Below the pieces are notes generated by a model. The model was given only the letters and a program-made list of their open reading frames with translations. It had not been told where the DNA came from and ran no database searches. A program made the translations under genes and the position numbers. A DNA stretch of 64,000 nucleotides from NCBI RefSeq assembly GCF_963675165.1, contig NC_087392.1, positions 1,255,001-1,319,000 on the forward strand, given 5' to 3'. This DNA comes from Halichondria panicea. Taxonomy: Eukaryota > Porifera > Demospongiae > Suberitida > Halichondriidae. Numbering within the stretch: position 1 is the stretch's first letter; every line of letters begins with the position of its first letter. This document shows, piece after piece, positions 27,581-60,133 of this stretch.

Positions 27581-30539
27581 ATGGCTTCAACGATTCGCAG
27601 TGAGGAGGACACTAAGGAGTTCTTTGACTCTCCAGAAGAGCTGGAGACTAAGGTCTCCCAGCTGGCTGACTGGATCAGGCAGAGCAAACACTTCATTGTG
27701 TTCACTGTAAGACAGCTAGCTTGCTGAGGTCTAGCTAGCTAGCTAGCTAGATTTCTTGGGTGGTGTAGTCATGTATTTTTATATACACGCAACTTTTTTC
27801 TTTCTTGCAGGGAGCAGGAATCAGTACTTCAGCTGGAAGTAAGTTATCGATCGATCTACATCTACCAATTCATATAATTATCTCTCTATTTCAGTTCCAG
27901 ATTTCCGTAGCGGAATAAATACTAAACTGGAAACAGGTACTAGCTATGGGATTATGCTGTTGCATTGATTGATGCCCTTGTGTTTCTCCATGCAGGACCG
28001 GGTGCATGGGAGCTACGAGCTAAAGGCATCGGACGGGACATTAGGAAGCACAAAACAACATCCGTCACCAAGGCAATCCCCACACCAACGCACATGTCGT
28101 TTGTGCAGCTCATGGAGAAGGGAATTCTGCATGCTGTAGTCAGTCAAAACTGTGATGGCCTGCACAGGAGAAGTGGATTACCAACCTCCAGTGAGTCTCA
28201 GTAAACACAGCAATTATCTAATAATTGGTCACCTCTTCCAACAGGGTTGTATGAGCTCCATGGAAACAGTAATGTTGAGAAATGCAACAAATGCAAGAGA
28301 GAATATCTGCGGGATTTTAGGACACGAACAGCCATGGCTGTATACGGCCACAAGACAGGTGAGCTATTCCCGTTAATCAGCTCTTCTAAATTATTGTATA
28401 TATTTATGCTGCAGGTCGCAAGTGTGACGACCCTGCCTGTCGTGGTGACCTTGAAGACACGATTATCAACTTTGGAGAGAGCCTTCCTGTAGGTACGAAT
28501 GTGGGAGCCTGACCAATATCAAGAGTACATAATAGAGAGAGAGTAGTATCGAACATAGACATACTGTGCATCAGATGTGTGTGGAGAGTAACGTGACTCC
28601 CTGTATCTGTCATGTGTGATGTAATCATCAAATACGTCACGCGTACTTAGTTGTTCACAGTGCAAATTCCCAAGCCCATGACAGATACAGGAAGTCACGT
28701 ACAGGAAGTCACGTAGATTACATCACACACACTTAGATAGGTCAGTGTGCAAGCCCATGACAGATACATGAAGTCACGTTACTCTTCGCACGATGCACAG
28801 AATGCCTATACGCTCGATACTGTTCTCTCTCTGTTATATACTTTTGCCAATATCAAGAGTTTATGATAGAGAGAGAGTATCGAACGTAGGCATACTGTGT
28901 ATCAGATGTATGCGGAGAGTAACGTGACTTCCTGTATCTGTCACAAGCTTGGAATTTGCACACTGACCAATCCAAGCGTGGGTGATGTAATCTATCAACC
29001 CTTCCAAGTGTGGGTGATGTAATCTACTTGACATCACCCACACTTGGATTGGTCAGTGTGCAAATTCCAAGCTTGTGACAGATACAGGAAGTCACGTTAC
29101 TCTCCGCATACATCTGATGTACAGTATGCCTACGTTCGATACTCTCTCTCTATCATAAACTCTTGCCAATATTGAATGCCTTTATAACACGTAATATTTT
29201 GTTTGCTACAGTTACTCTAGAGGATAGTTTTGACCACTCAGAGAAAGCCGACATCTGTTTGGCCATGGGCTCGAGCCTCACTGTCACACCAGCTGCTAAC
29301 ATCCCGGAGGTACAAGCACATTTTCTGTGTCCCTTTTCTGTCTGTGCTCTAGAGATTTCTGACTAGTAACTATCTACATCTGCACTCTTACACTCTATAG
29401 AATGTGGGCCAGAGGAATATACTGGTGATAGTGAACCTACAGAGGACACCACTGGACCACCGAGCTGCCATGAGGATCAATGGGAAGTGTGATGATGTGA
29501 TGAAACTGCTCATGAGCAAGCTGGGGCTGGATATACCCGAGTTTAGGCTCAAGAGGTGACTGATCATTGTCTACATATTAAAGAAAAGGGTATATTTTAG
29601 ACCTACATGTATGTCACCATTTATGGAGATACATAATGTGAATACATAGGACAGTGTGTACACATCTCTATTTGCATTTTCCCAATAATCACACAAAACA
29701 ATCACAATCACCACATGGGATAATTGTGTCGATCACCACATGGGATAATTGTGTCAATCACCACATGGGATAATTGTGTCAATCACCACATGGGATAATT
29801 GTGTCAATCACCACATGGGATAATTGTGTTGATTGCCATGCAAGCATGAATCTTCATTAAGATGTACTTTTTTTTGTACAGACGAATTGTAATGACAGCT
29901 GGGAAGAAAGGAGACAAGTATGAGGTATAGTGACGTACAGTGGTTTAGTGGGAAGTGATTGTGTCACTCTCTCCGCATGATTCCAGGTGTGTGTGGAAGG
30001 GAGGGACCAAGAGGACCACCCGTTCTCGTTTCTCAAGTCTGTCACATTCAGTGGAGCTGGCCCGGACATCAGATGTGATCAAGAGCCCTACACAGTGCTG
30101 ACCAGAGCTGGTGCTGCCCTCCAGGTCAACATAGCCTTCCATTCTCACTATGGGGAGCCTCCTTTGATGTTGAAGTTTGATATAACTGGAGGTGAGCATA
30201 CCACCATGATAATAGAGTTCGTTGGTCTAATCTTACCAGAGACAGGTTATATAGTTTCGATCTCCGTATTTATTGTACATTATGCGTTATACCTAAGCTT
30301 CAATGACTATACTATGATGTCTTAGATCCCACTTGAGTGGTTTATATACTTGATGTAGCATGTGTTACTAGCCAATCACTTGATATATATGATCTTGCAC
30401 AAACCTTGCAGACGGATCAGTGACAGTGGATCTCCAGTACAACCCCTTCACTGGGATGTGGGCAGTTTCAAGGTCTGACGAGGTCAAAGGTGAAGTCGAG
30501 GATGTCGCTGAAAACCTAGCCAGTGTCAAAATTCAGTAA
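27581..30539 (+). CDS. sirtuin, SIRT7/SIRT6-like, tandem copy 2
   Basis: Eleven exons (27581-27706, 27811-27838, 27895-27936, 27996-28190, 28245-28358, 28415-28492, 29212-29309, 29401-29555, 29882-29924, 29987-30191, 30412-30539) give 403 aa. Motifs are as in copy 1 (GAGISTSAG, QNCDGLHRRSG, ELHGN, CDDPAC) and no break is seen. The start lies 181 bp after the stop of copy 1, on the same strand. Intron 6 is 719 bp, swollen by two foldback elements; the equivalent introns of copies 1 and 3 are under 75 bp. Intron 8 has a minisatellite. The protein is closer to copy 3 than to copy 1. Confidence 0.93.
28521..28844. repeat. foldback/MITE element 1 in sirtuin copy 2 intron 6
   Basis: The outer ends (AAGAGTACATAATAGAGAG and, at the far end, CTCTCTGTTATATACTTTT) are imperfect reverse complements. 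Inner blocks with CTGTATCTGTCA / TGACAGATACAG also pair. The whole 324 bp can fold on itself. There is no coding content. Confidence 0.8.
28855..29164. repeat. foldback/MITE element 2 in sirtuin copy 2 intron 6
   Basis: A 310-bp near-perfect palindrome: AAGAGTTTATGATAGAGAG at the left is matched by CTCTCTATCATAAACTCTT at the right, with most of the arms paired. It sits 10 bp after element 1 and is related to it. Both are flanked by copies of CCAATAT, a candidate target-site repeat. Confidence 0.85.
29701..29831. repeat. 25-bp minisatellite in sirtuin copy 2 intron 8
   Basis: Five tandem units of about 25 bp with the core CACCACATGGGATAATTGTG. Units differ only by single bases. It is absent from the same intron of copy 3. 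Confidence 0.9.
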
Positions 30540-31238
30540 TCAATTTGTTTGTCATGTAGTGTATTAGCTGTACATGTAGCTTTCTTAATCACTTTTGGAA
30601 AACTTTTTTACTTTAATACACATTATTTTTTCAAGTTGTCCAAGGTTGCATTTACAACAACAACATTATTCAAGGAAACTGAAAGTGAAGCAAACCCGAG
30701 TGTGTAGATCTAGTTTAATTATTGGAGATTGATGACAAATGTGATGGGTATACTGTTACTTTGATAGAGTTGAAAAATGCATTCATTATTGTTAGATTAC
30801 AGGTTGTGGGATTGGGGGACTGCATGTATGCACGTAGGTCTTCTGAATGGAGTCGCTACTCAAATGGCACTGACCATGAGCAGTGTTGCTTTAATTACAA
30901 TGGCTCACCTTTTCTAACCTATCTGGCTATCAGAATCTGCAAAATGTTTGCACAGCATAATTATATAAAGGAAGTGTGTACACAAAGTCACCTGCTAAGC
31001 CCATAGTCATACAGTAACATACACTCTAGTATTATGATATTGATTGTGACCAGGATTCATGCACTCTTGTTGTGACTCACAGCTGCATGCTAAAAAGGGG
31101 TGGAGCTGGTTGTGCAGACTGCAGAGTAGCCTCCTTCACAAGCCGAGGCTAAACTACTGCAGAGCTGCAGCAAGTTTATGTTTATATGTGAGAGAGATTT
31201 ACAGTTCCAAGAGACAGTTCTCATAGTAGGGCATCAAT
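30540..31238. other. spacer between sirtuin copies 2 and 3
   Basis: Holds the 3' UTR of copy 2, a segment related to the 3' part of the CAP-Gly gene (listed separately) and the copy 3 promoter. The sequence just before copy 3 (31080-31120) resembles that before copy 2 (27448-27490), so the promoter was duplicated too. Confidence 0.6.
30760..31010 (-). pseudogene. decayed duplicate of a CAP-Gly gene intron-microexon segment
   Basis: This stretch aligns with 34258-34520, which lies inside the CAP-Gly gene and includes its 20-nt microexon and flanking splice sites. In this duplicate the microexon has gained about 8 bp and a stop codon. The neighbouring exons are missing. It is a by-product of the sirtuin duplication, not a gene. 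Confidence 0.7.
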
Positions 31239-33259
31239 ATGGCTTCAACAATTCGCAGTGAGGAGGACACTAAGGAGTTCTTTGATTCTCCAGAAGAGCT
31301 GGAGACTAAGGTCTCCCAGCTGGCTGACTGGGTCAGGCAGAGCAAACACTTTATTGTATTCACTGTAAGTCAGTAAAACAGCTAGCTTGCTGAGGTCTAG
31401 CTAGCTAGATTTCTTTGGTGGTGGTTTGTACAAAGTCATGTATATACTTTATACATGCATATTTCTTGCAGGGAGCAGGAATCAGTACTTCAGCTGGAAG
31501 TAAGTTATCAATTATTGATCTACATCTACTAATCATCTCTCTATTTCAGTTCCAGATTTCCGTAGTGGAATAAATACTAAACTGGAAACAGGTACTAGCT
31601 ATGGGATTATGCTGTTGCATTGATTGATGCCCTTGTGTTTCTCCATGCAGGGCCAGGTGCATGGGAGCTACAAGCTGCAGGCATCGAATGGGATGTTAGG
31701 AAGCACAAAACAACATCCGTCGCCAAGGCAATCCCCACACCAACGCACATGTCGTTTGTGCAGCTCATGGAGAAGGGAATCCTGCATGCTGTTGTCAGTC
31801 AGAACTGTGATGGCCTGCACAGGAGAAGTGGATTACCAACCTCCAGTGAGTCTCAGTAAACACGGCAATTATTTTATTAATTAATTATTGGACACCTCTT
31901 CCAACAGGGTTGTATGAGCTCCATGGAAACAGTAATGTTGAGAAATGCAACATATGCGAGAGAGAATATCTGCGGGATTTTAGGACATCAACAGGCATGG
32001 GTGGTATGTTCGGCCACAAGACAGGTGAGCTATTCCCGTTAATCATCTCTTCTCAATTATTTATGCTGCAGGTCGTATGTGTGACGACCTTGCCTGTCGT
32101 GGTGACCTTGAAGACACGATTATCAACTTTGGAGAGAGCCTTCCTGTAGGTACAAATGTGGGAGCCTGTGACCATCATTTTTCAATATCGTAACATGTAT
32201 ATTTTGTTTGCTATATACAGTCACTATAAAGGATAGTTTTGACCACTCAAAGAAAGCTGACCTCTGCCTGGCCATGGGCTCGAGCCTCACTGTCACACCA
32301 GCTGCTCTCATCCCACAGGTATAAACACACTGGAAATTTCTGACTAGTAACTATCTACGTCTATAGAATGTGGGCAAGAAGAATTTGCTGGTGATAGTGA
32401 ACCTACAGAGGACACCAATAGACCACCTAGCTGCCCTGAGGATCAATGGGAAGTGTGATGATGTGATGAAACTGCTCATGAGCAAGCTGGGGCTGGATAT
32501 ACCCGAGTTTAGGCTCAAGAGGTGACTGCATGAGCATTGTTTACAGTGAAAGTGCTTGGACCTGCATGTATTATATGTATATGTCACCATTAATACATAG
32601 GTGCATGTGTACATGCATGTATATTCCCAATACAATCACAATCAATATACATGTATATCAACACGTTATAATTATTACAGGAGTGTGAATATGAACTTTT
32701 ATTTTAAGATGTACTTCTTTTGTACAGACGAATTGTAATGACAGCTGGGAAGAAAGGAGACAAGTATGAGGTATAGTGACGTACAGTGGTTTAGTGTGAA
32801 GTGATTGTGTCACTCTCTCCGCATGATTCCAGGTGTGTGTGGAAGGGAGGGACCAAGAGGACCACCCGTTCTCGTTTCTCAAGTCTGTAACATTCAGTGG
32901 AGCTGATCCGGACATCAGATGTGATCAAGAGCCCTACACAGTGCTGACCAGAGCTGGTGCTGCCCTCCAGGTCAACATAGCCTTCCATTCTCACTATGGG
33001 GAGCCTCCTTTGATGTTGAAGTTTGATATAACTGAAGGTGAGCATTGTGATTCCATCATGATAATAGTCGGTTCATTGGTCTATCTTTTGCTACTAGCCA
33101 ATCATTATTTGCACAAACCACCACCTTGCAGACGGATCAGTGACAGTGGATCTCCAGTACAACCCCTTCACTGGGATGTGGGCAGTTTCAAGGTCTGACG
33201 AGGTCAAAGGTGAAGTCAAAGATGTCGCAGAAAAACTAGCCAGTGCCAAAATTCAGTAA
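31239..33259 (+). CDS. sirtuin, SIRT7/SIRT6-like, tandem copy 3
   Basis: Eleven exons (31239-31364, 31472-31499, 31550-31591, 31651-31845, 31908-32024, 32072-32149, 32221-32318, 32367-32521, 32728-32770, 32833-33037, 33132-33259) give 404 aa. Catalytic and zinc motifs are intact (ELHGN, CNIC, CDDLAC). Exon 5 has one extra glycine codon. Several substitutions are non-conservative (RAKGIGRDI in copy 2 is QAAGIEWDV here; IPE becomes IPQ before exon 8), so substrate loops may have diverged. The start is 3658 bp from that of copy 2, the approximate unit length. It converges on the CAP-Gly gene. Confidence 0.93.
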
Positions 33260-33972
33260 TCAAATATTTGTTTGTCATACAGTGTGGCTATTAGTGTACA
33301 TGTAGCTTTCTTAATAACTTTTGAACACTCTTATGTTATATATATTTGGCAACTGTGAATTAAAGTTGAAACAACAATTATTATTGACTTGTAGCCAAGG
33401 TTGGATATGATTTGAAAACATTTACAGCAACAACATTAAATTTACAAGAAACTGAACTGAAAGTGAAACATAACGAGTGTGTAGCTTAATTATTGGAGAT
33501 TGATGACAAGTGTGCTGTAACCTATGATAATGCAATGCATGTGTGAAATCGATCATTAGAGCCCAGCCCAGAATTTGTGACAACGATCAGTTCAACTTTC
33601 CCAGCTCATCTGTGCCGTCTCAGCTCTGTGTGTGCGTGTGAAGGATAATAGTAACTGAGAGTGTACACACACAAATACAAGAGTAGCTAGCTAGCTATAT
33701 AAAAAATAATTATAGTGGGGTTGTATAATTTCAAAGTAATACCGTACAAACTCGATTATAAGCGTATCTTTATTTTAAGCGCATATGCTCAACTACAGGT
33801 TTTTGTACTCCTTTTCTAATTTTGTGAAGGACATTAGGTAGAATCGATTCAGCTATCTATGTGCTAGCTAGCAGCTTGTGTAGTGCATGCATGGTACGCT
33901 AATAAGCCATTTTTTACGGTATGCATTTAGTAGCTGTTTGGTAGTGCTAACAATAATTACGGTATGTCTAGA
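33260..33972. other. convergent spacer, sirtuin copy 3 / CAP-Gly gene
   Basis: No gene seen. The part near 33400-33520 is repeated after sirtuin copy 2 (30630-30740), marking the duplicated unit. TAGC-rich simple sequence is present near 33685. Confidence 0.6.
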
Positions 33973-34830
33973 TCAGCGATTGCTTTCGGGGGGGGGAAAT
34001 GTTTTCTTTTCTGAAAGCCGGTGTGTGTGTGTGTGTGTGTGTACGTGAAGCTCACAGCTAGTTACCTTCCACATGTGCTCTGTTGAGTGCCATTATCTCA
34101 CTTTGATGTCTCTCCACCAACTCCTTGAGAGCTCCTTTCTGTTGCCTTTCCATCTGTAATAACACAAAATGTATTCATTGAGGAAACCTCATAACATGTT
34201 TACCTCAAAACCACATCACCAAACAGTAGCAAATTGAAACTTTATACTAGGCCAGGGAATGCTGTTACTTTGCTAGAGTTGCAAAATGCATTCTCAATAT
34301 ACTGTAAATCAGATTACAGGTTGTGGGATTGGGGGACTGCATGTATACATGTAGGTCTTCTGAATGGAGTCACTATACTCATATGGCACCACGAGCAGTG
34401 TTGCTTAATTACAATGGCTCACCTTTTCTAACCTGTCAGAATCTGCAAAATGTGTGCACAGCATAAGGAAATGTGTTGCTATTAGTGTACACAAAGTCAC
34501 CTGCTAATAAGTGTATCCAAACAAGCCCATACATGCATACATAACAACTGAAAACCTAAAAGCATTATCATTTTAATACACACACAGTTCCATTATTGCA
34601 TGCAGGCACTTCCACTAGTCTAGCAATTAGCATAGCTGGCTAGCCATCTGACTATTGTTCTAGGAAGGGAAATATGACCTTAGTAACCAACTGCCTGTTG
34701 TGGGTTGGGCAGAGTATAGTTAGGTAATAATAATCCTGTTATAGCTCAGACAAGACAACCATGGCACCACTATACTCACATTCTTTTCTCAGAGTATCTA
34801 ATTGAGTTTTGTTTGCCTTTTTCTGCAAAG

Positions 34831-34877: not shown

Positions 34878-37158
34878 GGAATTAAATGCGTGGGCGGGTG
34901 TGTGTACATCAGCTGACTTAGGTAGACCCTGAAAACAACATCACCATAGCTACACCCCATAAACAAACATACTGTTTAGCCTGTGTTGTTCCCTGAGCAC
35001 TGCCAGTACACCAGCCACTGTCACACCCTCCAACTGTAGCAGTCAAAACAACATATGAGTAGGAAACCTCATCAAAAGACAAAGATAAGATTCAAAGCTA
35101 GGCATTGTTGTAGCAAGAATCAAAAACAGTTTATAGAGCCTATGGCACAATAATTATGGATAGAAAAAAATGCATGCAAGAGCTTGTAGATTGAAAGATG
35201 ACAATGAGTATACATGAAACCTACGACGATATTACTAATTTAAAACATAATTATGGGACATAGCTGTAGCTATATATAAGAAAATGTGCAACTCACTGAG
35301 TGCTTGGGGTCTAGTAGCTGAGTCACCACACTGTCTGTCTCCTCTGTCTCAGAATGGTGTGAGGCTGTGTGCTGTGTGAGGGGGTGGGCCAGAGTGGCAG
35401 AGCCTGAGGGCCGATTCTTGTAACACTTGTTTGGTGTGGCAACAACCTCGGGAAATGCCATAGTCGCCTGGTTGTAGCTGGGATTCTTTAGCTCACTCTT
35501 GATCAGCAGGACAGGAGCAGACTCGAGACCACTTGTGTCCACCTTCTTGTTTACCTAGAGTGAGAGCAAGGTCATTATTATTTTGATTAGCAAGAACACA
35601 TAAAACAGTGGTTTAATTGTACACACATGATGCAACATACTTCACATTTCATATCACACGGGCTGAAACACATAGTTACCATAATCCCTGCCTTCCCGTT
35701 GATTGGTGTGTTGGGGCCGTTAGGTGTAGGAGTCTCCACAAAAGCCGTCTCCCCGACAGCCGGTGTTTTGACAGGATCGTCTGATTGGCTAGTATTGCTC
35801 CCCGAGTCGTCATCAGGTGAGGAGCACCCATCAGGAGTATGTTCATCACGTGTGCCGGGTGTTGACGTCTGGGGATACTTGATCACAGGGGTGGGGTCTT
35901 TAGAGGGGGCAGGCTGCTCTGGTACATTGACATCTGAGCAGCTGTTGACTCTCACTTTGCGAGACAATTTATCCTTTTTTGTCGAAGTGCTTTTACCACT
36001 AAATCCTCGCAGATCTCTCTCTGAGCTGGATTTCTTAGAGGGCATCTTTGGTGTTGTATTACCTCCACTCGCCTTACTGATATTGTCTGTGCTTCTGGCC
36101 TTTACCATTCCTCCTGACTTGAATGGAGGAAGTTTCTTTGTCTCTCTCGGCTCCTCTCGACTTACTCCCTTCGTAGCAAACGCTTTGAGGGGCTGACGAC
36201 GGTTGTTCGATGATGATTGAGTGCTGGTTTTGCTGCTGCGTTTTTGTACTGGAGCCGAGAGTCTGTTCACAATCTGCTGCTGCAGGGAGAGAGTGTTCAG
36301 TCCCTTCTGTGTGGCTGTCAGGGAACCTGTTTTAATCTCCCTGTCAACTGACGTGCTTCTGCTGCTGGGGGAACTGTTGGGCCGACTGCGACGTCCAAAA
36401 TCCATTTCAACTTTGTTGATGGGGACAAAAACACCATAGTTTGCATCACAGGTGAAATAACGAATTCCTTTGTAAGTGCCGTTGTTCTTGCCACTGGCAT
36501 TGTTCAGTTCCACTCCACACCACGTTCCCGTCGAGAATTCCGTCTCTCCGATGAATCGAAGGGTCCCATATTTGCTTTTTTTATCGGCAGATGAATAGTA
36601 GAGCACTCTCTTGCCGACATCTCTGAGTGTGGGTTGAACGGATATGTCTTTGTGAGTCCCTGAGCACTCTGAGTCACTGGTATCCGGTGAGACCTCGTCA
36701 ATGTGGTGAGCGAGCTGTGCAATACAACACACAATCAATCTTGTCAATAAATGGATTTTTAATGGATTTCAGAGTAGCTTTATACTCCCACTAATGGCTC
36801 TACAGGGTGTTAATAGACTGCAAAGACTTTGCAGACATCTGATCCCAATTTGCAAGTCCAGCTACAGTCTAGTCCAACAGCACTAGATCTAAGCAAGAGT
36901 ATATACTCTTGATCTAAGGTTACTCTACTTTTGATTAATAGGGCATAGATAGTCTAGTAGAGTAAAAATTTGTGCTGTTTTTGTGCTATAAAATACACAG
37001 AAAAGGACACAAACAAAAACTTCCTACTTCCTACAGCCAGCAAAAATAATAAAATAATATTTGGATATAGGCCTAGCTATGGATTTAGATGCTGAAGCGT
37101 TATGATTCATAGTTACAAACATAGTCTACGTACTTACTGGTAGTGCAAGCTCAGTCAT
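33973..37158 (-). CDS. CAP-Gly domain microtubule-binding protein, CLIP-like
   Basis: Eight minus-strand exons (37158-37138, 36714-35680, 35554-35297, 35033-34973, 34830-34780, 34442-34423, 34153-34066, 34010-33973) join in phase to 523 aa. One CAP-Gly domain lies at about residues 42-112 (GTLRFIGETEFSTGTWCGVEL, GKNNGTYKGIRYF, NYGVFVP). A long basic Ser/Pro-rich region follows, as in microtubule plus-end binders, then a short C-terminal coiled coil (LDTLRKEYSDRLEKMERQQ). The usual GKNDG is GKNNG. CLIP-family proteins bind EEY/F tails of tubulin and EBs. With one CAP-Gly and a short coil it is much smaller than CLIP1. The final 12-codon exon (EKKTFPPPESNR) is less certain because it rests on a C9 run. 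Confidence 0.83.
34423..34442 (-). other. 20-nt microexon of the CAP-Gly gene
   Basis: A ttttgcag acceptor and a gtgagc donor bracket 20 nt. With one base from the preceding exon they encode YSDRLEK and correct the phase between flanking coiled-coil exons. Without it the frame stops. Confidence 0.8.
34831..34871. repeat. (GT)n microsatellite abutting a 3' splice site
   Basis: Read on the minus strand this is (AC)n ending in ACACAG at the acceptor of exon 5 of the CAP-Gly gene. It replaces the usual pyrimidine tract. A shorter (GT)n lies at 34019-34042 in a later intron. Confidence 0.85.
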
Positions 37159-37321: not shown

Positions 37322-38169
37322 ATGGCTGCTGACTGGCCTCTCCTGACCTTTAAGCTGCTTCTCCTGCTATGTGTGCCTTCCTGTGTCCTAGTGTGCACTC
37401 TCCTGGGCTTGCATTCTACGCAGACTGGTAAGTTTGCCTGGGAAACCACAAGTGTGCCTGCATGCACACACATTGCAATGCAGTGTTGGTTATTGTTATA
37501 ATTTGCCACTGAGCTTCTTCATTCCATTCCCATACACACATAACACAATTGCAGACTTCGTTCGTCCCAAGGTTCACTGCACCCCTATCCCCACGCACAC
37601 ACTCATCACACAGCCCCACTCGCAGCGGGTAGTCCTAGTAACGGGCGCTGCCGGATTTATTGGCTACCATATCAGCCGAGCCCTGGTTGACAACTGGAAG
37701 GCCACTGTAGTCGGTCTAGACCTATTCACAGACTATTACGACCCTCAACTCAAGCATGACCGTGCAAACGAGCTAATCAAGATAGGGGTCACCATTTACC
37801 GGGACGATGTCTGCGACGCTCAACTTTTACTGCATCTGTTTGAGAGATACCAGTTCACAGACGTCATCCACCTTGCAGCTCAAGCAGGGGTCAGGCACTC
37901 ACTCAAGGACCCGGTCAGTTACGTGCACAACAATATCCAGTGCTTTCAAGTTCTACTGGACACCCTGAAGCAATTCAATGTAAGTCACTGATAATAATTA
38001 GTGAGTGTGTGTATTTGAATATACAACAATGTTATTAGTGAGGATCACGTACAAACTGAGATTCCCTGGAAGGAAGCTATATAGTTGACATAAACAGTAA
38101 TTCTAGACGGCTTCAAATGTTAATATACTGCACATAACTGCATGTACACTAATCACACACACACACACG

Positions 38170-38229
<60 letters not shown>

Positions 38230-41200
38230 AAACGTCTCTCGTGTATGCATCCTCCTCTAGTGTCTATGGTCGATCAGCCCCCCTCCCCTTCAGCACTCTC
38301 ACACCTCCAAATCCTCCATCAAGTATCTATGCTGCCTCAAAGCAGACAAATGAACTGTTCTCTAAAACCTATTGCTCTCAATACGGCATCCGATCAATCG
38401 GGCTACGTTTATTCACCGTGTACGGACCCTGGGGAAGACCAGACATGGCTGTGTACAAGTTTACCGACAGCATTATCAACAAAAGACCTATACCAATGTT
38501 TACAGCATCGCAAGCACTAGAGAGAGATTTCACATTTGTTAACGACACAGTGGGTGTGTTTCTGGCGGCCCTAGACCACGCCTCCCAGTGTTGTGGGGAG
38601 GTGTACAATGCTGGTCTCGGAGAGCCAAAGAGTCTGTCCACACTAGTGAGGCTGCTGGAGGAGGAGCTCAACTCAACAGCAGACACAGTGAGTGAAACTG
38701 AATGCTTCATTGCTATTGCTATTAATTGTTGGAATTGATTGCACAAACTTTTCAGGCCTGGCTAATTAATCTCACAAATGATGTGCATTTGCTAAATTAA
38801 CATTCTGTATCAGTGTTTACTTTGTGGGTACGCATTTTCACTCTTTCAATGTATGGCAGGATCCGTCTCCTTTGATGTCATGTGACTTGCATGTGACCTG
38901 GGCGGATATGGAGGAAACAAAGAGAGTCTTGGGGTACACACCTCGCGTCAAATTGAGGGACGGTCTTCGAGAATTCATAGCGTGGTACAAACACTATCAC
39001 TCTCGGAATAAAACCAGTGAAAGATTGAAGTGAGTGTTGTTTGCAGTGACAATCTCTGTAGATTGATCTGTATAGAAACACGAGTAGAAATTACCGTGTG
39101 TGTCCACTTACATGTACGTAATAGTTTTGTAATGTTAATGTATGGTGGTTGTTGATAATAAACTTGTAGGTGTACAGACTACTTAACAATTAATTATAGC
39201 GCTACTACCACTTCAACTCTTTAATGTGTGGGGTTGTGTTTGCAGGGAGTTGTATGGGGAAGGGGAAGTTATTGCTACAATGGCAAAGGGAAACCTGGAG
39301 CAAAGAAACAGAAAGTACAGTGACCGGATCAATGGCCTTAAACAGTGGTTAGAGAGCTGACAGTGCCTATGTCAACTCATGGAGATATTCCTCCAATGTT
39401 CAGGTATTATCAGTATGCAGAAGATCGTGGGATTCCATTACCTGTCCTTACAAAGAAGAGATTCATCTTCTACCCAGGTAAAGTATTTCACCCAGTGCTC
39501 TATTATCACATCATGCAATGTGCTATCATGCTTGTGTAGGTAAGGAGTCACCTGGACACACTGTGATCAAGGCCCCTAGTTACAGAGGCAACCTGAAGGT
39601 ATTCACTCAGTAATTATCCACTTAGCAATGACACTTGAGAACAATTGTTGCAGCTTTTGGAGGAGCGTTGCCTGGCTACAGAGCAGTGTATAGCATTCAC
39701 TAGTTCTGGGGAGTTTAAGAACCGACTGACTCCCATGAATAAGTGGGTGGCTACACCACAAGAGGATGGGATGTATGTGGCAGGTGAGTGAATATGGATG
39801 TGCGGGGGTGGTGTGTGGGTGTGGGGTGTTTATAGGTGTGGTGGGTGAAGTACAAATGGTAATTGCAACTACGTACGTGTACATAATTATATTGAAGACA
39901 GTTACCAGGCCTAGTTGGCTATCTAGCGTTATTTTAGAGACAACCCAGCCTATCAGGAAACTATGGTTGCACATGTTTTTAATTAAGGTGCAATTGTCTT
40001 TGCAATTAATTTCCTTATATAACCTTCAGGAATGTTGAGCAAGTCTAAGGGCCAGGTACTCAGTTGTAGTGTACATTGTAGATGCATTGAAATGTACCTG
40101 TACTTGCTTTTTTTTTACTGTGAATTATTGTGTTGCAGACATAGACTTGTGTGCATCCGACCTACACTTCTGTGGAAAGCACTCGGATTGTGTTTACACA
40201 GGTGAGTGTGGTTGTAGCTACTGGGGTGCTCATTAAACACTTGTCTGTTTGTGTAGGACCTGCCAACTACACTTGTGCATGTCACCATGGCTACCTGAAG
40301 CTGGGGCAAAACTGTGTGGAAAGGTATAAACATTTCTGTGAACTTATTAACTCAATTAGCTGTGTCTTCGATTGCAGGTATGTGCAAGGTGATGTTGGAG
40401 CCACAGAGGAGGAGTGGATCTTGTCAGACCAGTTTGACGGGTTTAACTGGGAGGAGGAGATTCGAGGGAGACCATTTGTATTCTTCCAAGGCCTGGACTC
40501 CCCTGGAGGTGACTACCTGGTTGTAGAGGGGCGAAGTCTGGAGGAATTGAGGGATGTGTGTCTCTCCACTCGACACTGTCTGGCCTTCAACACTAACGGC
40601 ATTCTCAAGGACTCTCTGCGGCCACCTAGTGTGTGGGGCAGGTGGGCAGGGCCTCAATACCCCCAACACGGACTCTATGTCTTAGGTGAGACTATAGCTA
40701 GCTAGGCAAATTCAGTGCATGGAACCATACATAGATAATAGAGCACAGAAATGTCTCTATTATCTATGATGGAACTTACAAAATAGTACACTAATCTCTC
40801 ACTTGCATGTACCGTTGCTATCCGCTTACACGAACACACACACACTCTCTCACGTACTTTTGTATACATTCTCATATTCCTACACAAACGTACATTGTTC
40901 GGAGACATTGTGAGAGATTGCTCACACACCATTCACTCTCTCCCTCTACACAGATATCGACTATTGTAGCTTGAATTTGGAGCAATGTCCCCCTCACTCG
41001 CTCTGCCTGAGGCACTCTCCTGGTAACTACAGCTGTACCTGCACACCTCCCTGGATCCCCACCCATGACCACAGCTGTACTATTGACCTCGTACACATTA
41101 TACTGTCAACTGATTCGGAACAACTCCCCGGACTGATCAGTGTCATCAACTCCACCTTAAACCATACCCAACACTCGGAGCAAATTGTATTTCATATCGT

Positions 41201-42453
41201 ATTCATTGGAGAGCGATTCGTGATTGAATCCTATCTGAGTTGCTATGGCTACAGCGACCACCCACAGATTGACATCACCATATTCAATGCTAGCCTGATA
41301 ACAGAGCCTATTAAGGTGTACTCAAAAATCAGCCACGTTGGACACCTAGCCAGTACCGGAAATTTTGCAAGGTTCTACTTTCATCTCCTCTTTCCGGAGC
41401 TGAGTCGTGCAGTGTACCTGGATGTGGACACGGTTGTGTTAGGGGACATGGCGGAGGTTTGGAGCACGCTACAGACAACAAACACACTCTTGGTGGCTGC
41501 TCCAAGGTTAGCATGATGTTGAGTTGTGTCAGTAGACTTCTTAAACTGTATCTCTAAACAGTGAAATTGTTCCCTTATTGTATTATGTTTTTAAAACTCT
41601 AAAATTGTTCTGTAGAATCTCACCGACATATGGAGATATGTTGTCTGTACATGTCAAGACATTGTTTAGGGAACGGTTGGTTATTTATGGTCTATTTTGA
41701 AAGCTACAATCAAATTATTATTGTTTCACAGATACCAGAGGGAATTCAGATCTGATGATGTTACTTTCAATGCTGGCGTATACGGAGTTAACCTTGACCT
41801 TTGGCGAGAGAATCGTATCCATGACGAAGTAGCGTATTGGATGAACCAGGTATAACAATAATAATTATGTTCATTTGTTATTTTTACCACAATGCCACGT
41901 ACGCCACCCATACACCCACACACATTGTCTAACACCCCCTCCCCCCCACTCACACACAGCAAGCTAAAGCTCCACTGTGGAAGTATGGAACACAGCCAAT
42001 CATGTTGCTAGTGGCTCACAGACAATGGGGACACCTGGACCCACACTGGAATGTTAATGGTGACTCTAGCTATTGCCATAGTATCATTATCAGTGAGTTA
42101 CTGCATGATCTCTGCAGGACTGGGCTGGAACACGAAGATGAGCAGACGCGATGTGGATGAGGCAAAACTACTTCATTGGAGTGGGAAAGGTTCATGAATT
42201 CATTTTTCTTTGCATGCAAATTACTCACTATGCAGCTAAGAGCTAATTACAGTTTAAATAGTGGCTAATTCTGATATGTTGTGTCCATGCAGGAAAACCA
42301 TGGCTACCCAATGGACTATACAAAGATTTGTGGCATGCACACAATCCTCCGTCGTGCAGTGGGCACGGTCAATGCATCACCATGGAGACAGGCATCTATA
42401 CGTGCCGTTGTGACAATGGCCATATAGGAGAACTTTGCAGCCAACAAAACTGA
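37322..42453 (+). CDS. UDP-glucuronate 4-epimerase / GT8 glycosyltransferase fusion, copy A (intact)
   Basis: Sixteen exons, all in phase, give 988 aa: 37322-37427, 37555-37979, 38229-38687, 38860-39029, 39246-39347, 39404-39477, 39540-39598, 39654-39783, 40139-40201, 40257-40323, 40378-40685, 40954-41506, 41732-41849, 41960-42059, 42118-42189, 42293-42453. An N-terminal membrane anchor (about 11-29) is followed by an extended SDR epimerase domain: GAAGFIG at 66-72, ASSSSVYG near 186, IYAASK (Tyr211, Lys215), and VYGPWGRPDMA, typical of UDP-GlcA 4-epimerases. Two modules of apple/PAN-like plus six-cysteine EGF follow (about 421-700). Then a GT8 domain (700-940): YLDVDTVV near 808 with the DxD, NAGVYGVNLDLW, LLHWSGKGKPW. 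A last EGF is at about 945-985. Likely a Golgi type II enzyme making UDP-GalA and transferring a sugar. The transferase's donor and acceptor are inference. Confidence 0.82.
38154..38227. repeat. (CA)n microsatellite at the exon 3 acceptor, copy A
   Basis: The CA run ends ACACAG directly before exon 3 (38229), so the repeat itself serves as the 3' splice-site tract. Confidence 0.9.
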
Positions 42454-44969: not shown

Positions 44970-46094
44970 CGAAGAGTGACATAATTATTTGCGCGAGTCC
45001 CCACTCGCAGAAAATGCTCATTAAAACACTTGCGAATACATAGAAAAGAATGGACGAGTGCATGATTAATTTCACAGGAATTGAAAACACAAACAAATCT
45101 ACCTGTCACCGGTAGGTATGCAGAATAGCTCACAGTTTAAAGACTAAATCGTTTTGCTTGCCTACTGCTAACTGCAGCAAGATCTGGTGCTCAGTAGGTA
45201 TATATATACAATCTCAGCCTATCTGAGTCTGAGATAGAAAGGGTGCTTGAGTACCATGAGCCCCCCTGGCTGCGCTCCTGCTGACTGGCCTCTCCCGACC
45301 TCCAAGCTGCTTATCCTGCTATGTGTGCCTTCCTGTGTCCTAGTGTGCACTCTCCTGGGCTTGCATTCTACACAGACTGGTAAGTTTGACTGGGAAACCA
45401 CAAGTGTGCCTGCATGCACACACATTGCAATGCAGTGTTGGTTATTGTTATAATTTGCCACTGAGCTTCTCCCATACACATGCATACGTAACAAGAATAT
45501 CCACTGCAGATTTCGTTCGTCCCAAGGTTTACTGCACCCCTATCCCCACGCACACACTCATCACACACCCCCACTCTCAGCGGGTTGTCCTAGTAACGGG
45601 CGCTGCCGGATTTATTGGCTACCACGTCAGCCGAGCCCTGGTTGACAACTGGAAGGCCACTGTAGTCGGTCTAGACCTATTCACAGACTATTACGACCCT
45701 CAACTCAAGCATGACCGTGCAAACGAGCTAATCAAGATAGGGGTCACTATTCACCGGGGCGATGTCTGCGATACTCAACTTTTACTGCATCTGTTTGAGA
45801 GATACCAGTTCACAGACGTCATCCACCTTGCAGCTCAAGCAGGGGTCAGACACTCACTCAAGGACCCGGTCAGTTACGTGCGCAACAATATCCAGTGCTT
45901 TCAAGTTCTACTGGACACCCTGAAGCAATTCAATGTAAGTCACTAGTGAGTGTGTGTATTTTGATATACCAACAGTCTTATTGGTACAAACTGAATTAGT
46001 ACAAACTGAGATTCCCTGGAATGAAGCAATAATAATTATAGTTGGCATAAACATGCAGTAATTCTATACTGATAACTGCATGACTGTACACTAA

Positions 46095-46095
<1 letters not shown>

Positions 46096-46181
<86 letters not shown>
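46096..46181. repeat. (CA)n microsatellite at the exon 3 acceptor, copy B
   Basis: Same position as in copy A; ends ACACAG before exon 3 at 46183. Confidence 0.9.
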
Positions 46182-46183
<2 letters not shown>

Positions 46184-46234
46184 AAACGTCTCTTGTGTAT
46201 GCATCCTCCTCTAGTGTCTATGGTCGATCAGCCC

Positions 46235-47331
46235 CAGGGGCGTAGGCAGGAATTTGAGGAAGGGGGGGCTGAGCTGTAGGGCGAAATTTTTCGGCGACCG
46301 GAAGCCACACCCCTTAATTAATGACTCATTTCCGGGAAGTGAATTCTATATCCTGCCAACAATCAAGGGCTATAGCTAGCTAGCTATAGTTTCAGTCTAC
46401 GTGATGACGCCTGGCAAATTCATCAACAATGTCTTCAACTGATACGTCGATGTCTCTGTGTACATGAAGTAGAGCCAGGGAGGACAAGCGATCGTTCCCC
46501 ATGGTAGATCTGAGAGGGTTTTTTTATCCTTTTAAGTCCACTGAAACTTCTCTCTACAGAACAGGAGGTGACAGGCAGAGTACATAGGCACCAACAGCAA
46601 AACTCTAACTTTTTGTTGTCGGTTTTTTCAGCTGAGGGAAATGCAATGTACAACACCACGTCTTGGTTTGACTGATCTACAGCATGGACTTGTTTTGCTA
46701 TTGGTTGGCTGCTTGACAAACTGTAGAAACAGGCCGTGTATAGTTATAGTTGTACTTATAATATAATTTTATGATGTTACAATGTTATTGTTCTTGTAAA
46801 AACAAATAACAATTAATATGCATGAAACATTGCTAATAATTATTATTTATAGTGCTAACTACATGTGCATGTACAATGTAATAATGATAATGTAGCTGAT
46901 GAGTTACTTTGCTGGCTCTTCATCAGTACTCAGGCTGGCAGTACTAGAGCTTGCCCTTGAGAAGTAGCGGTCCAGTTTCTGTGACATGTCGCTGCTTTCA
47001 ATCAACCTTCTCAATCAACCTCTGTGGTAGATTATTAATCATGCAGTTGCACAGTGCATTGCGCATGTGCAAGAAATAGCCACACCTTGCTTCAATTAAT
47101 AATACTATAGAGCTAGCTAGCTAGCCGTAGCTAGCTAGCTTAGTTGCACTAAAGAATCAAAATTACTAGTATAGTATAGCTAGCTCTTGGACATGCTGTT
47201 TGTCTGCCACTAATCTATACCAGTAATTCCCAGGCTGAAGACTCATCAGAGAAGGTGGGGCTCTTAGTGTAGTTTTTGCAGAGAAAGGGGGGGCTCCAGC
47301 CCCCAAAGCCCCCCCCCTCCCTACGCCCCTG
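46235..47331 (-). mobile_element. hAT-type DNA transposon (degenerate, 1097 bp)
   Basis: The ends are inverted repeats CAGGGGCGTAGGCAGG / CCTCCCTACGCCCCTG. AGCCC is present on both sides (46230-46234 and 47332-47336) and once in copy C, so it is a 5-bp target duplication. On the minus strand near 46500-46590 a fragment LPVTSCSVERSFSGLKRIKK is the hAT C-terminal dimerisation motif. A frameshift follows and most of the transposase is gone. hAT elements usually make 8-bp duplications; 5-bp subtypes are known. Confidence 0.85.
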
Positions 47332-48839
47332 AGCCCCCCTCCCCTTCAGCACTCTCACACCTCCTAATCCTCCATCAAATATCTATGCTGCCTCAAAGCA
47401 GACAAACGAACTGTTTTCCAAAACCTACTGCTCTCAATACGGCATCCAATCAATTGGGCTACGATTTTTCACTGTGTACGGACCCTGGGGAAGACCAGAC
47501 ATGGCTGTGTACAAGTTTACTGACAGCATTATCAACAAAAGACCTATACCAATGTTTACAGCATCGCAAGCACTAGAGAGAGATTTCACATTTGTTGACG
47601 ACATAGTGGGTGTGATTCTGGCAGCCCTAGACCACGCCCCCCAGTGTTGTGGGGAGGTGTACAATGCTGGTCTCGGAGAGCCAGAGAGTCTGTCCACACT
47701 AGTGAGGCTGCTGGAGGAGGAGCTCAATTCAACAGCAGACACAGTGAGTGAAACTGATCAATTCATTGCTTAATTCATTGCACAAGCTTTTCATGCCTGC
47801 ATGGCTAATCACAATCTCGCAAATGTTGTCTCAGATTCTGTATCAGTGTTCACTTTGTGGCTACACTGTATTGCAGGATCCGTCTCCTTTGTTATCATGT
47901 GACATGCATATGACCTGGGCGGACATGGAGGAAACAAAGAGAGTCTTGGGGTACACACCTCGTGTCAAATTGAGGGACGGTCTTCGAGAATTCATAGCGT
48001 GGTACAAACACTATCACTCTCAGAATAAAACCAGTGAAAGATTGAAGTGAGTGTTGTTTTTGCAGTGACAATCTCTGTAGATTGATTTGTATAGAAACAG
48101 GAGTAGATTCTGGTTGAAATTATCGTGTGTGTGCATTTACTTGTACGTAATAGTTATGTAATTGTTAATGTTGATTGTTGATACTAACTTGTAGGTGTAC
48201 AGATTACGTGACAATTAGCGCTATTACCACTTCAACTCTTTAATGTGTGGGGTTGTGTTTGCAGGGAGTTGTATGGGGAAGGGGAAGTTATTGCTACGAT
48301 GGCAAAGGGAAACCTGGAGCAAAGAAACAGAGAGTACAATGACAGAATCAATGGTCTTAAACAAAGGTTAGAGAGCTGACAGTGTCTATAGATATTCCTC
48401 CAATGTTCAGGTATTATCAGTATGCGAAAGATCGTGACATTCCATTACCTGTCCTTACAAAGAAGAGATTCATCTTCTACCCAGGTAAAGTATTTCCACC
48501 CAGTGCTCTATTATCACATCATGCAATGTGCTATCATGCTTGTGTAGGTAAGGAGTCACCTGGACACACTGTGATCAAGGCCCCTAGTTACAGAGGCAAC
48601 CTGAAGGTATTCACTCAGTAATTATCAGTAATTATCCACTTGGCGATGGCATTTGAGAACAATGGTTGCAGCTTTTGGAGGAGCGTTGCCTGGCTACAGA
48701 GCAGTGTATAGCATTCACTAGTTCTGGGGAGTTTAAGAACAGACTGACTCCCATGAATAAGTGGGTGGCTACACCACAAGAGGATGGGATGTATGTGGCA
48801 GGTGAGTGAATGGGTGTTTGCACGCATTGTGTGGGTGTG

Positions 48840-48894
48840 TAGCCTCGAGACCAGGCCGTTCGTTGTCTGAAAGAACGGCCTGGTCTCGAGGCTA
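48840..48894. repeat. 55-bp perfect hairpin in intron 8 of copy B
   Basis: The arms TAGCCTCGAGACCAGGCCG and its complement flank a loop of about 10 nt. It is present at the same place in copy C (63028-63082) and absent from copy A. The arm start resembles the inner foldback at 42801. Confidence 0.85.
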
Positions 48895-51800
48895 TGTGGG
48901 GTGGGGGTGGAAAGGGTGTATAGGTGGGTGAAGCATAAGGGGAATTCTTGCAACTACGTATGTATACATAATTATGGGACAGCTGTAGACTGTACATTGT
49001 TGATGCTTTTTACGTCAATTATTGTGTTGCAGACATAGACTTGTGTGCATCCGACCTACACTTCTGTGGAAAGCACTCGGATTGTGTTTACACAGGTAAG
49101 TGCATGTAGTTGTAGCTACTGGGGTGCTCATTAAACACTTTGTATAGGACCTGCCAACTACACTTGTGCGTGTCACCATGGCTACCTGAAGCTGGGGCAA
49201 AACTGTGTGGAAAGGTATAAACATTACTGTGAACTTATTAACTCAACTAGCTGTGTCTTCGATCGCAGGTATGTGCAAGGTGATGTTGGAGCAACAGAGG
49301 AGGAGTGGATCTTGTCAGATCAGTTTGACGGGTTTAACTGGGAGGAGGAAGTTCGAGGGAGACCATTTGTGTTCTTCCAAGGCTTGGACTCCCCCGGAGG
49401 TGACTACCTGGTTGTAGAGGGGCGAAGTCTGGAGGAATTGAGGGATGTGTGTCTCTCCACTCGACACTGTCTGGCCTTCAACACTAACGGCATTCTCAAG
49501 GACTCTCTGCGGCCACCTAATGTGTGGGGCAGGTGGGCAGGGCCTCAATACCCCCAACACGGACTCTATGTCTTAGGTGAGACTAGCTAGGCAAATTCAG
49601 TGCATGGAACCATACATAGATAATAGAGCACAGAAATGTCTCTATTATCTATGATGGAACTTACAAAATAGTACACTAATCTCTCACTTGCATGTACCGT
49701 TGCTATCCGCTTACACGAACACACACACACTCTCTCACATACTTTTGTATACATTCTCATATTTCTACAAAAACGTACATTGTTCTGAGACATTGTGAGA
49801 GATTGCTCACACACCATTCACTCTCTCCCTCTACACAGATATCGACTATTGTAGCTTGAATTTGGAGCAATGTCCCCCTCACTCGCTCTGCCTGAGGCAC
49901 TCTCCTGGTAACTACAGCTGTACCTGCACACCTCCCTGGATCCCCACCCATGACCACAGCTGTACTATTGACCTCGTACACATTATACTGTCAACTGATT
50001 CGGAACAACTCCCCGGACTGATCAGTGTCATCAACTCCACCTTAAACCATACCCAACACTCGGAGCAAATTGTATTTCATATCGTATTCATTGGAGAGCG
50101 ATTCGTGATTGAATCCTATCTGAGTTGCTATGGCTACAGCGACCACCCACAGATTGACATCACCATATTCAATGCTAGCCTGATAACAGAGCCTATTAAG
50201 GTGTACTCAAAAATCAGCCACGTTGGACACCTAGCCAGTACCGGAAATTTTGCAAGGTTCTACTTTCATCTCCTCTTTCCGGAGCTGAGTCGTGCAGTGT
50301 ACCTGGATGTGGACACGGTTGTGTTAGGGGACATGGCGGAGGTTTGGAGCACGCTACAGACAACAAACACACTCTTGGTGGCTGCTCCAAGGTTAGCATG
50401 ATGTTGAGTTGTGTCAGTAGACTTCTTAAACTGTATCTCTAAACAGTGAAATTGTTCCCTTATTGTATTATGTTTTTAAAACTCTAAAATTGTTCTGTAG
50501 AATCTCACCGACATATGGAGATATGTTGTCTGTACATGTCAAGACATTGTTTAGGGAACGGTTGGTTATTTATGGTCTATTTTGAAAGCTACAATCAAAT
50601 TATTATTGTTTCACAGATACCAGAGGGAATTCAGATCTGATGATGTTACTTTCAATGCTGGCGTATACGGAGTTAACCTTGACCTTTGGCGAGAGAATCG
50701 TATCCATGACGAAGTAGCGTATTGGATGAACCAGGTATAACAATAATAATTATGTTCATTTGTTATTTTTACCACAATGCCACGTACGCCACCCATACAC
50801 CCACACACATTGTCTAACACCCCCTCCCCCCCACTCACACACAGCAAGCTAAAGCTCCACTGTGGAAGTATGGAACACAGCCAATCATGTTGCTAGTGGC
50901 TCACAGACAATGGGGACACCTGGACCCACACTGGAATGTTAATGGTGACTCTAGCTATTGCCATAGTATCATTATCAGTGAGTTACTGCATGATCTCTGC
51001 AGGACTGGGCTGGAACACGAAGATGAGCAGACGCGATGTGGATGAGGCAAAACTACTTCATTGGAGTGGGAAAGGTTCATGAATTCATTTTTCTTTGCAT
51101 GCAAATTACTCACTATGCAGCTAAGAGCTAATTACAGTTTAAATAGTGGCTAATTCTGATATGTTGTGTCCATGCAGGAAAACCATGGCTACCCAATGGA
51201 CTATACAAAGATTTGTGGCATGCACACAATCCTCCGTCGTGCAGTGGGCACGGTCAATGCATCACCATGGAGACAGGCATCTATACGTGCCGTTGTGACA
51301 ATGGCCATATAGGAGAACTTTGCAGCCAACAAAACTGACCAATTTATACTGTAGCTGTATTCACAAATTAAAACAAAATTTAATCATCAATGAAAGCACC
51401 ACATGTCTAGCGCCTGGTGAGATGCCTAAGCTACATAACATAAAGCTACTATTTAATAGCTTTTATACATTAATTATTGCTGCATGCAGGCAGAATCACA
51501 GGTAGCCAGCCTCCTTCAATTCACAAGGCCTCAGTTTAGTGCTGCCTGGAATCGAAGCTAAATCGGAGACTCAAGGAGTGGGTAATGATCGGCCTTGTTA
51601 AAAACGATCTATGCCAAAAGTTCAAGTCTTGCATGTAGTTGGGCGGAGTCCAACCAACGAAGATGAGCGCAGCGTTGGTTTTAGCCTCGATTCCAGGCCG
51701 CAAAGAGAAAGGTGGAATCGAGGCTACGTTGGTTGGATTCGGCTCGCACAGCCAGCCCCGGATGTTTTCTATTTGAATGCTAGGTCGATAACTCGGGGCT

Positions 51801-53855: not shown

Positions 53856-54980
53856 CGAAGAGTGACATAATTATTTGCGCGAGTCCCCACTCGCAGAAAA
53901 TGCTCATTAAAACACTTGCGAATACATAGAAAAGAATGGACGAGTGCATGATTAATTTCACAGGAATTGAAAACACAAACAAATCTACCTGTCACCGGTA
54001 GGTATGCAGAATAGCTCACAGTTTAAAGACTAAATCGTTTTGCTTGCCTACTGCTAACTGCAGCAAGATCTGGTGCTCAGTAGGTATATATATACAATCT
54101 CAGCCTATCTGAGTCTGAGATAGAAAGGGTGCTTGAGTACCATGAGCCCCCCTGGCTGCGCTCCTGCTGACTGGCCTCTCCCGACCTCCAAGCTGCTTAT
54201 CCTGCTATGTGTGCCTTCCTGTGTCCTAGTGTGCACTCTCCTGGGCTTGCATTCTACACAGACTGGTAAGTTTGACTGGGAAACCACAAGTGTGCCTGCA
54301 TGCACACACATTGCAATGCAGTGTTGGTTATTGTTATAATTTGCCACTGAGCTTCTCCCATACACATGCATACGTAACAAGAATATCCACTGCAGATTTC
54401 ATTCGTCCCAAGGTTTACTGCACCCCTATCCCCACGCACACACTCATCACACACCCCCACTCTCAGCGGGTTGTCCTTGTAACGGGCGCTGCCGGATTTA
54501 TTGGCTACCACGTCAGCCGAGCCCTGGTTGACAACTGGAAGGCCACTGTAGTCGGTCTAGACCTATTCACAGACTATTACGACCCTCAACTCAAGCATGA
54601 CCGTGCAAACGAGCTAATCAAGATAGGGGTCACTATTCACCGGGGCGATGTCTGCGATACTCAACTTTTACTGCATCTGTTTGAGAGATACCAGTTCACA
54701 GACGTCATCCACCTTGCAGCTCAAGCAGGGGTCAGACACTCACTCAAGGACCCGGTCAGTTACGTGCGCAACAATATCCAGTGCTTTCAAGTTTAACTGG
54801 ACACCCTGAAGCAATTCAATGTAAGTCACTAGTGAGTGTGTGTATTTTGATATACCAACAGTCTTATTGGTACAAACTGAATTAGTACAAACTGAGATTC
54901 CCTGGAATGAAGCAATAATAATTATAGTTGGCATAAACATGCAGTAATTCTATACTGATAACTGCATGACTGTACACTAA

Positions 54981-55596
<616 letters not shown>

Positions 55597-56896: not shown

Positions 56897-57568
56897 TTGA
56901 AGAGACTGAATGGCTACTTGAATATCGGCTATATACATACTGAATTTCAACACTTAAATGTTTTCACAGCCATGAATAAACAAGCTAAAGAATTCCTAAA
57001 AGCCAAATCGGCTCAGTATCAGAAACTTCGCTCAGCTGTCTCTATCCTAGAGGAAAACATTCAAAGGCAAAACCAACTGAAATTAGGAGCGATCCCGGAA
57101 GAATTCATACCGAAACCTAACTTAACCTGCGAAAACGACACTTTCCATCAACAATTTCTATCAGAATACTCCCACATCTTCACAAAATATCTAGAAGCAG
57201 TAATAACCAGCAACAACCAGAGTTTGGCCCAAACAAAGACGGCACTAGAATCTCTTGTGAATGACACAGAACGAGATTTACTTAAATTTGAAATACGTGA
57301 CACAGATATCCAAATACAATACAGAAAATTCCTAAAAGAAAACAAGATCCACGGACACGTCCCCACACCTGAGTTGCAAATCAGACTAAATAAAAAACAT
57401 CGGCCGCCAAGGCTTTCTCTCGGTGCGAAACGCAATACTCGCAGAAAACGGTGTAGAGAAATGTCTCAACACCCAATAGCCCAAAAAATTCCCAAAACAT
57501 CACAAACTCCTTTTTTATGGGAAGGCCCCCAACCGAAACACAACCCACCAGGTGCGTCCACAATCTGA
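56897..57568 (+). CDS. N-terminal ORF of the Penelope-like element
   Basis: 223 aa, rich in Lys, Gln and Glu, with a helical N-terminal half and a basic stretch (KRNTRRKRCREMSQ). It overlaps the reverse-transcriptase frame in a different phase. It may be the N-terminal extension of the same polyprotein, separated by a frame change. Without relatives to align, a distinct ORF1 cannot be excluded. Confidence 0.5.
   Translation: MKRLNGYLNIGYIHTEFQHLNVFTAMNKQAKEFLKAKSAQYQKLRSAVSILEENIQRQNQLKLGAIPEEFIPKPNLTCENDTFHQQFLSEYSHIFTKYLEAVITSNNQSLAQTKTALESLVNDTERDLLKFEIRDTDIQIQYRKFLKENKIHGHVPTPELQIRLNKKHRPPRLSLGAKRNTRRKRCREMSQHPIAQKIPKTSQTPFLWEGPQPKHNPPGASTI

Positions 57569-60055: not shown

Positions 60056-60057
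<2 letters not shown>

Positions 60058-60133
<76 letters not shown>

Follow-up and report, generated by a model that had tools for sequence, protein, structure and literature searches.

A probable sponge gene that may join a UDP-glucuronate 4-epimerase to a GT8 glycosyltransferase

As a rule, one protein synthesizes a sugar donor and another transfers the sugar. In plants, the Golgi UDP-glucuronate (UDP-GlcA) 4-epimerases (GAE or UGlcAE) carry a membrane anchor, as does the protein described here, and the GAUT and GATL proteins are GT8 glycosyltransferases. Here, we describe a gene, copy A, that occupies positions 37322 to 42453 of a 64,000-nucleotide stretch of DNA (the window; bases 1255001–1319000 of contig C16 in a genome of 131 Mb and 39 contigs) and in which domains of both kinds appear in one reading frame. 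An earlier note had assigned the gene to an animal, probably a sponge, and our analysis agrees. UGlcAE-like sequences are already known in animals, with 10 in Metazoa in Table 1 of PMC3220709.

Copy A was rebuilt from genomic sequence as 16 exons, with GT–AG borders at every intron, consistent phases, and an open frame of 988 amino acids, which matches the exon chain proposed earlier. A Pfam scan of the spliced protein found both of the domains that the note had named, Epimerase at residues 62 to 306 (E = 8.2e-46) and Glyco_transf_8 at residues 702 to 940 (E = 1.3e-36; PF01501 score of 126.9 bits, gathering score of 24.3), along with EGF_3 in three stretches. From N terminus to C terminus, the layout comprises a membrane anchor, a short-chain dehydrogenase/reductase (SDR) epimerase, two modules alternating with EGF-like domains, the GT8 domain, and one more EGF-like domain at the end. 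The anchor spans approximately residues 8 to 30 (peak 19-residue hydrophobic window mean of 2.67 at residue 12). The next-best window after residue 40 has a mean of 1.35; the protein thus has only one strong hydrophobic segment, at its N terminus. The two modules (residues 422–508 and 552–654) have no counterpart in Pfam up to E = 10, although HMMER's filters remove most hits weaker than 0.1. On visual inspection, the two are copies of a single repeated module: in each, F-x-F-x-x-G-x-x-SPG precedes C-x(5)-C-x-AF (at residues 471 and 613), which is followed by G-x-YV ahead of an EGF-like domain. A structure prediction for exon 11 alone (mean pLDDT 43.5) was not used. At the DNA level, the two-domain architecture is well supported.

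The epimerase half retains the NAD-binding motif TGAAGFIG (residues 65–72; GxxGxxG) and the SDR motif YAASK (residues 211–215; YxxxK), together with the YGPWGRPDMA block of the earlier note. Its closest solved sequences are 5u4q (E = 7.2e-70), named dTDP-glucose 4,6-dehydratase by its depositors and presumably from Klebsiella, and then 6zl6 and 6zla (E = 1.8e-41). We take 6zla to be the Bacillus cereus UDP-GlcA 4-epimerase (BcUGAepi), whose published residues fit the alignment numbering: T126/S127/S128, Y149, T178, and R185 correspond to S186/S187/S188, Y211, T240, and R247 in the predicted protein. According to the sections of PMC7984243 and PMC12338863 that treat BcUGAepi, these residues hold the substrate carboxylate and the tyrosine is catalytic. 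Here, the pocket residues are conserved or conservatively changed (Thr126 to S186), and at position 128 the protein has the Ser of epimerases rather than the Glu of UXS and UAXS decarboxylases. Among 56 relatives from one contig scan, all titled bacterial or archaeal and the better ones 41 to 44% identical, SSSSVYG, with Ser at the Thr126 position, occurs in 46, and FTVYGPWGRPDMA occurs in 40. The UDP-glucose 4-epimerase (GalE) model of NCBIfam, TIGR01179, gave 127.9 bits, below its cut-off of 262.3; the genome's own GALE scores 413.5 bits on the GalE model. Because the carboxylate-binding residues of the B. cereus enzyme are kept, the epimerase half is quite likely to make UDP-galacturonate (UDP-GalA) from UDP-GlcA, and the motifs and pocket alignment sustain the enzyme type assigned in the note.

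In the GT8 half, DVD (residues 811–813), FNAGV, and HWSGKGKPW (residues 931–939) each line up with the corresponding motif in LgtC or WbbM. The last of these aligns with HYAGENKPW in bacterial WbbM and HYCGPAKPW in LgtC, a galactosyltransferase. With such motifs, the GT8 half looks active. Its solved relatives at E ≤ 1 are limited to WbbM, a GT8 (5gvv), and two LgtC entries (best E = 3.3e-5), and we know of none among WbbM, 5gvv, and LgtC that is a galacturonic acid (GalA) transferase. Because LgtC and WbbM share HxxGxxKPW, HWSGKGKPW is a general GT8 mark and no proof of GalA transfer. It is the fusion to the epimerase, its sole basis, that links the GT8 half to GalA, and we consider GalA transfer plausible, at about an even chance.

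The locus is a tandem triplet in which copies B and C each have all 16 exons and only copy A is intact. In copy A, the two halves meet across intron 5. A TGA (39358–39360) lies in the reading frame after exon 5, and splicing out 39348 to 39403 (56 nt) removes it and keeps the phase. The earlier note gave no donor for this join and did not mention the tandem copies. The donor that we place at 39348 (G/GTTAGA) is conserved in the same phase in A, B, and C, and resembles the intron 12 donor (AAG/GTTAGC). Intron 5 of B and C has the same donor and acceptor and a length of 44 nt, which differs from A by one 12-nt deletion; 44 nt is the shortest among the introns read in copy C, and 6 of the 15 introns of copy A are 54 to 62 nt long. 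Between A and C, length changes affect none of the 16 exons, a count that leans on manual end-setting since exon ends short by a few bases in these gap-free alignments were set to canonical sites, and 13 of the 15 introns, including intron 5. Its length varies like that of most introns, and the stretch therefore behaves as noncoding. Since a junction of exon 4 with exon 6 would likewise be in phase, skipping of exon 5 offers a second route to an in-frame fusion. Retention of intron 5 gives 424 residues ending in WLES with the anchor kept, and read-through past the exon 4 donor meets an in-frame stop after 387 residues. Among other candidate sites, a donor at 39345 (ACA/GTGGTT; score −0.10), whose GT is lost in B and C, was rejected in favor of 39348; a strong acceptor at 39420 (8.73) is out of phase with the 39348 donor, and the in-phase donor for it at 39320 (2.53) has no GT in B and C.

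The secretory pathway is where EGF-like domains and this type of GT8 domain would be expected. Because the glycosyltransferase (GT) half needs secretory entry and the sole strong anchor precedes the epimerase, one protein is the better reading, and we hold with moderate confidence that both halves reside in it. Of the single membrane enzyme claimed by the earlier note, the one anchor, which would have to serve both halves, and the phase-consistent join stand; a shared mRNA is predicted.

Copies B and C have decayed in different ways. Exon 3 of copy B carries a 1096-bp insertion (46236–47331) with inverted ends (CAGGGGCGTAG and CTACGCCCCTG). On visual inspection, a 5-bp target duplication is also likely, and by its appearance, the insertion is a nonautonomous DNA transposon. 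In copy C, the frame is interrupted at residue 169 by a stop near the end of exon 2, and intron 2 measures 6.7 kb. That intron also holds pure CA/AC runs of approximately 306 units (54982–55594) and 100 units (61274–61474), and short CA runs precede the same intron 2 acceptor in A and B. In their 5′ flanks, B and C resemble each other and are both unlike A; they lack the start codon of A, but an in-frame ATG that lies 18 nt 5′ of the corresponding site may serve instead. B resembles C in the 5′ half and is identical to A in exons 12 to 16; this identity implies that the copies exchanged sequence or duplicated recently, and B's mosaic pattern looks as if made by gene conversion or unequal crossing over. 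Between A and C, nonsynonymous and synonymous divergence (dN and dS) is 0.034 and 0.113 in the epimerase half, 0.022 and 0.041 in the GT half, and 0.076 and 0.063 in the C-terminal tail. The ratios below 1 in both halves may be a sign of constraint, a weak one because copy C is broken and subregions vary.

Several observations weigh against a single fused enzyme. The gene model was built by eye from genomic DNA alone, and the TGA, real as the earlier note had it, is present in all three copies. The acceptor of intron 5 scores lowest of 15 and its donor 12th of 15 by a small splice-site model built from the other 14 introns of the gene. The same model scores approximately 13% of all GTs and 29% of all AGs across the window as highly as the intron 5 sites, and a phase-compatible join is expected by chance approximately 1 time in 3. 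Conservation of the join was compared within one genome among three tandem copies, two of which are broken, so the conserved splice sites of B and C are weak evidence. The noncoding behavior of the intron 5 stretch is likewise compatible with an untranslated spacer that separates two genes. In the epimerase half, Pro85 of BcUGAepi is replaced by Ala146 (in AAQAGVR, likewise present in 5u4q), and UDP-xylose 4-epimerases have Ala at position 85, according to the part of PMC12338863 (2025) that compares them; Ala146 is either a point against a UDP-GlcA 4-epimerase or a subfamily difference, and the epimerase half may have a UDP-pentose side activity.

The TGA and the weak acceptor would suit two transcripts, one for an anchored epimerase that ends at the TGA or after exon 4 and one for a GT8 gene with its own promoter and first exon. 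Intron 4 of copy A contains an AATAAA (39157–39162) just after the stop that closes the 387-residue frame; this motif could mark the poly(A) site of a transcript for the epimerase alone, but it is absent from B and C. Moreover, the next ATG (39369) follows the TGA by 8 nt and is deleted in B and C, and the only AATAAA or ATTAAA between the TGA and 40954 in copy A is one ATTAAA (40232) inside intron 9. None of 17 unspliced ATG frames of at least 15 residues that start within 37980 to 39420 has an anchor-like segment (best 15-residue mean of 1.56 versus 2.65), in a scan that would miss a first exon spliced in from this range. We consider two transcripts decidedly unlikely. One gene could instead give two products in a ratio set by the cell, with a 424-residue anchored epimerase when intron 5 is kept and a bifunctional enzyme when it is spliced or exon 5 is skipped. 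Both outcomes are open frames, the exon 4 to exon 6 junction is in phase as well, and weak splice sites favor partial retention. However, with so many exons still to follow, a stop codon inside the retained intron may do no more than target the mRNA for decay, and the copies are too similar to reveal selection on the short ending. This switch strikes us as doubtful. Its fuller form, in which one sponge gene yields the anchored epimerase alone or the epimerase–GT8 protein, tunes how much UDP-GalA is released or handed to a Golgi galacturonosyltransferase, and so opens an animal route to galacturonic-acid glycans, is more tentative still.

The protein could also be fused and yet not couple donor to transfer, if the GT8 domain uses another donor (UDP-galactose, UDP-glucose, UDP-xylose, or UDP-N-acetylglucosamine) or if one half is inactive. 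The GT8 family is catalytically diverse, and the solved relatives named above count toward another donor. No match to a GT8 subfamily was found in Pfam, NCBIfam, or the PDB, and with a signature block shared by WbbM and LgtC, the earlier note's assignment of this half as a galacturonosyltransferase is not supported by its motifs. Catalytic motifs are kept in both halves, which argues against this alternative, and we regard it as somewhat unlikely. An artefact of assembly or prediction would be in keeping with a model drawn by eye, but the same 16 exons recur in three tandem copies with gap-free exon alignments (exon 3 of B being split by the insertion), and we think it highly improbable. These likelihoods overlap, as the splice switch and the other donor are variants of the fused protein.

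With somewhat better than an even chance, we favor copy A as the gene for a fused bifunctional enzyme of the secretory pathway (Golgi). It would be a single type II membrane enzyme whose N-terminal anchor places an NAD-dependent UDP-GlcA 4-epimerase in the lumen, where UDP-GlcA would be converted to UDP-GalA. Beyond the epimerase, a charged linker and a spacer with EGF-like domains would carry the GT8 domain, which would transfer a sugar (in all likelihood the newly formed GalA) onto a glycan, possibly by channeling. Such an enzyme needs the 56-nt TGA-bearing intron removed, or exon 5 skipped; retention would leave the 424-residue anchored epimerase. The combination of enzymes would be new for animals, with a new architecture and known chemistry.

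Table 1. Exons of copy A, its intron 5, and the two further tandem copies (window coordinates).
Feature	Position	Strand	Content	Basis
Exon 1	37322–37427	+	Start codon and N-terminal hydrophobic anchor	Gene model, hydrophobicity
Exon 2	37555–37979	+	Stem, epimerase start (TGAAGFIG, AAQAGVR)	Gene model, Pfam
Exon 3	38229–38687	+	Epimerase catalytic core: SSSSVYG 185–191, YAASK 211–215, YGPWGRPDMA	Gene model, Pfam, structure-entry alignment
Exon 4	38860–39029	+	C-terminal part of epimerase	Gene model, alignment
Exon 5	39246–39347	+	Charged linker; reaches TGA 39358–39360 if intron 5 is retained	Gene model
Intron 5	39348–39403	+	56 nt, holds in-frame TGA; predicted splice joining both halves	Donor GTTAGA and acceptor TTCAG also in B, C
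Exon 6	39404–39477	+	Linker to first module	Gene model
Exon 7	39540–39598	+	First module	Gene model
Exon 8	39654–39783	+	End of first module	Gene model; no Pfam match
Exon 9	40139–40201	+	EGF-like domain 1, first half	Gene model, Pfam
Exon 10	40257–40323	+	EGF-like domain 1, second half	Gene model, Pfam
Exon 11	40378–40685	+	Second module	Gene model; no Pfam match
Exon 12	40954–41506	+	EGF-like domain 2; first half of GT8, including DVD 811–813	Gene model, Pfam, alignment
Exon 13	41732–41849	+	GT8 (FNAGV)	Gene model, alignment
Exon 14	41960–42059	+	GT8	Gene model
Exon 15	42118–42189	+	GT8, HWSGK	Gene model
Exon 16	42293–42453	+	GKPW, C-terminal EGF-like domain, stop	Gene model, Pfam
Copy B	45274–51338	+	All 16 exons; exon 3 split by insertion; possible start codon 45256	
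Copy C	54160–64000, runs past window end to 65658 (extended coordinates)	+	All 16 exons; possible start codon 54142	

Elsewhere in the genome, among the best candidates scored, the epimerase half matched only pieces of the three copies and a GALE, and the GT half at E ≤ 0.001 matched only pieces of the three copies; weaker matches of the GT half (E > 0.001) fall on the EGF stretch. A genome search with PF01501 adds one LARGE-like gene (L001), which we take to encode a bifunctional glycosyltransferase with a glycosyltransferase as its second domain. In viral contigs, none of four pattern matches to the GT half and none of four to the epimerase was confirmed, and the linker-to-module stretch had no pattern match. 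No description of an epimerase–GT8 fusion was found among the best open-access matches as judged by title and the start of the abstract; an annotated but unnamed homolog may well exist in sponge protein databases.

Close upstream of copy A on the opposite strand lies a CAP-Gly open frame (35587–36768, minus strand; PF01302, E = 5e-24, frame scanned in part). A second tandem duplication occupies 30000 to 34375 (families D17–D19, 95–98% identity, spacing 2.7–3.5 kb). At 1 of the 20 loci examined among 77 Peptidase_C1 matches in the genome (L103), the sequence reads CGASYAFASIGALEG, with the catalytic Cys replaced by Ser, and we assume its wider motif to be silicatein-like. Silicateins are described as having this replacement in the part of PMC6233156 that treats it. 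Ser also occurs at another locus (L097; CGSSWAF) of a different-looking protease group, so the replacement alone is not decisive for a silicatein. A siliceous sponge is nonetheless the probable host.

If real, such a natural fusion would offer a ready test of Golgi channeling and a defined source of galacturonic acid for sponges, and the gene is a concrete target for the question whether animals use UDP-GalA. Saponins of Erylus sponges (nobiloside and the sokodosides) contain GalA, according to the relevant entries of a review (PMC10057720).

The epimerase half shares with the UDP-GlcA 4-epimerase entries 6zla and 5u4q the SDR motifs, YxxxK, the SSS pocket, and the T and R positions, as far as the BcUGAepi sections go (PMC7984243, PMC12338863). 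Its bacterial and archaeal relatives have a stop-to-stop frame of at most 427 amino acids in 56 of 56 cases, with no fusion of the 988-residue size among them. The GT8 half has DVD, NAGV, and HxxGxxKPW in common with LgtC, WbbM, and 5gvv, but it matches them weakly, lies amid EGF-like domains, and is fused to an epimerase. Two activities of one pathway share a single chain in plant RHM as well, according to the RHM passages of PMC3220709, and likewise in GNE and, by model names, in ArnA. L001 of the same genome also has a hydrophobic N terminus and combines GT8 with a second catalytic domain in one chain; that domain transfers sugar in L001, whereas in the sponge fusion it would make the donor. 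RHM, GNE, and ArnA join donor-making or precursor steps, and to our knowledge none of them couples donor synthesis to sugar transfer, as copy A may do.

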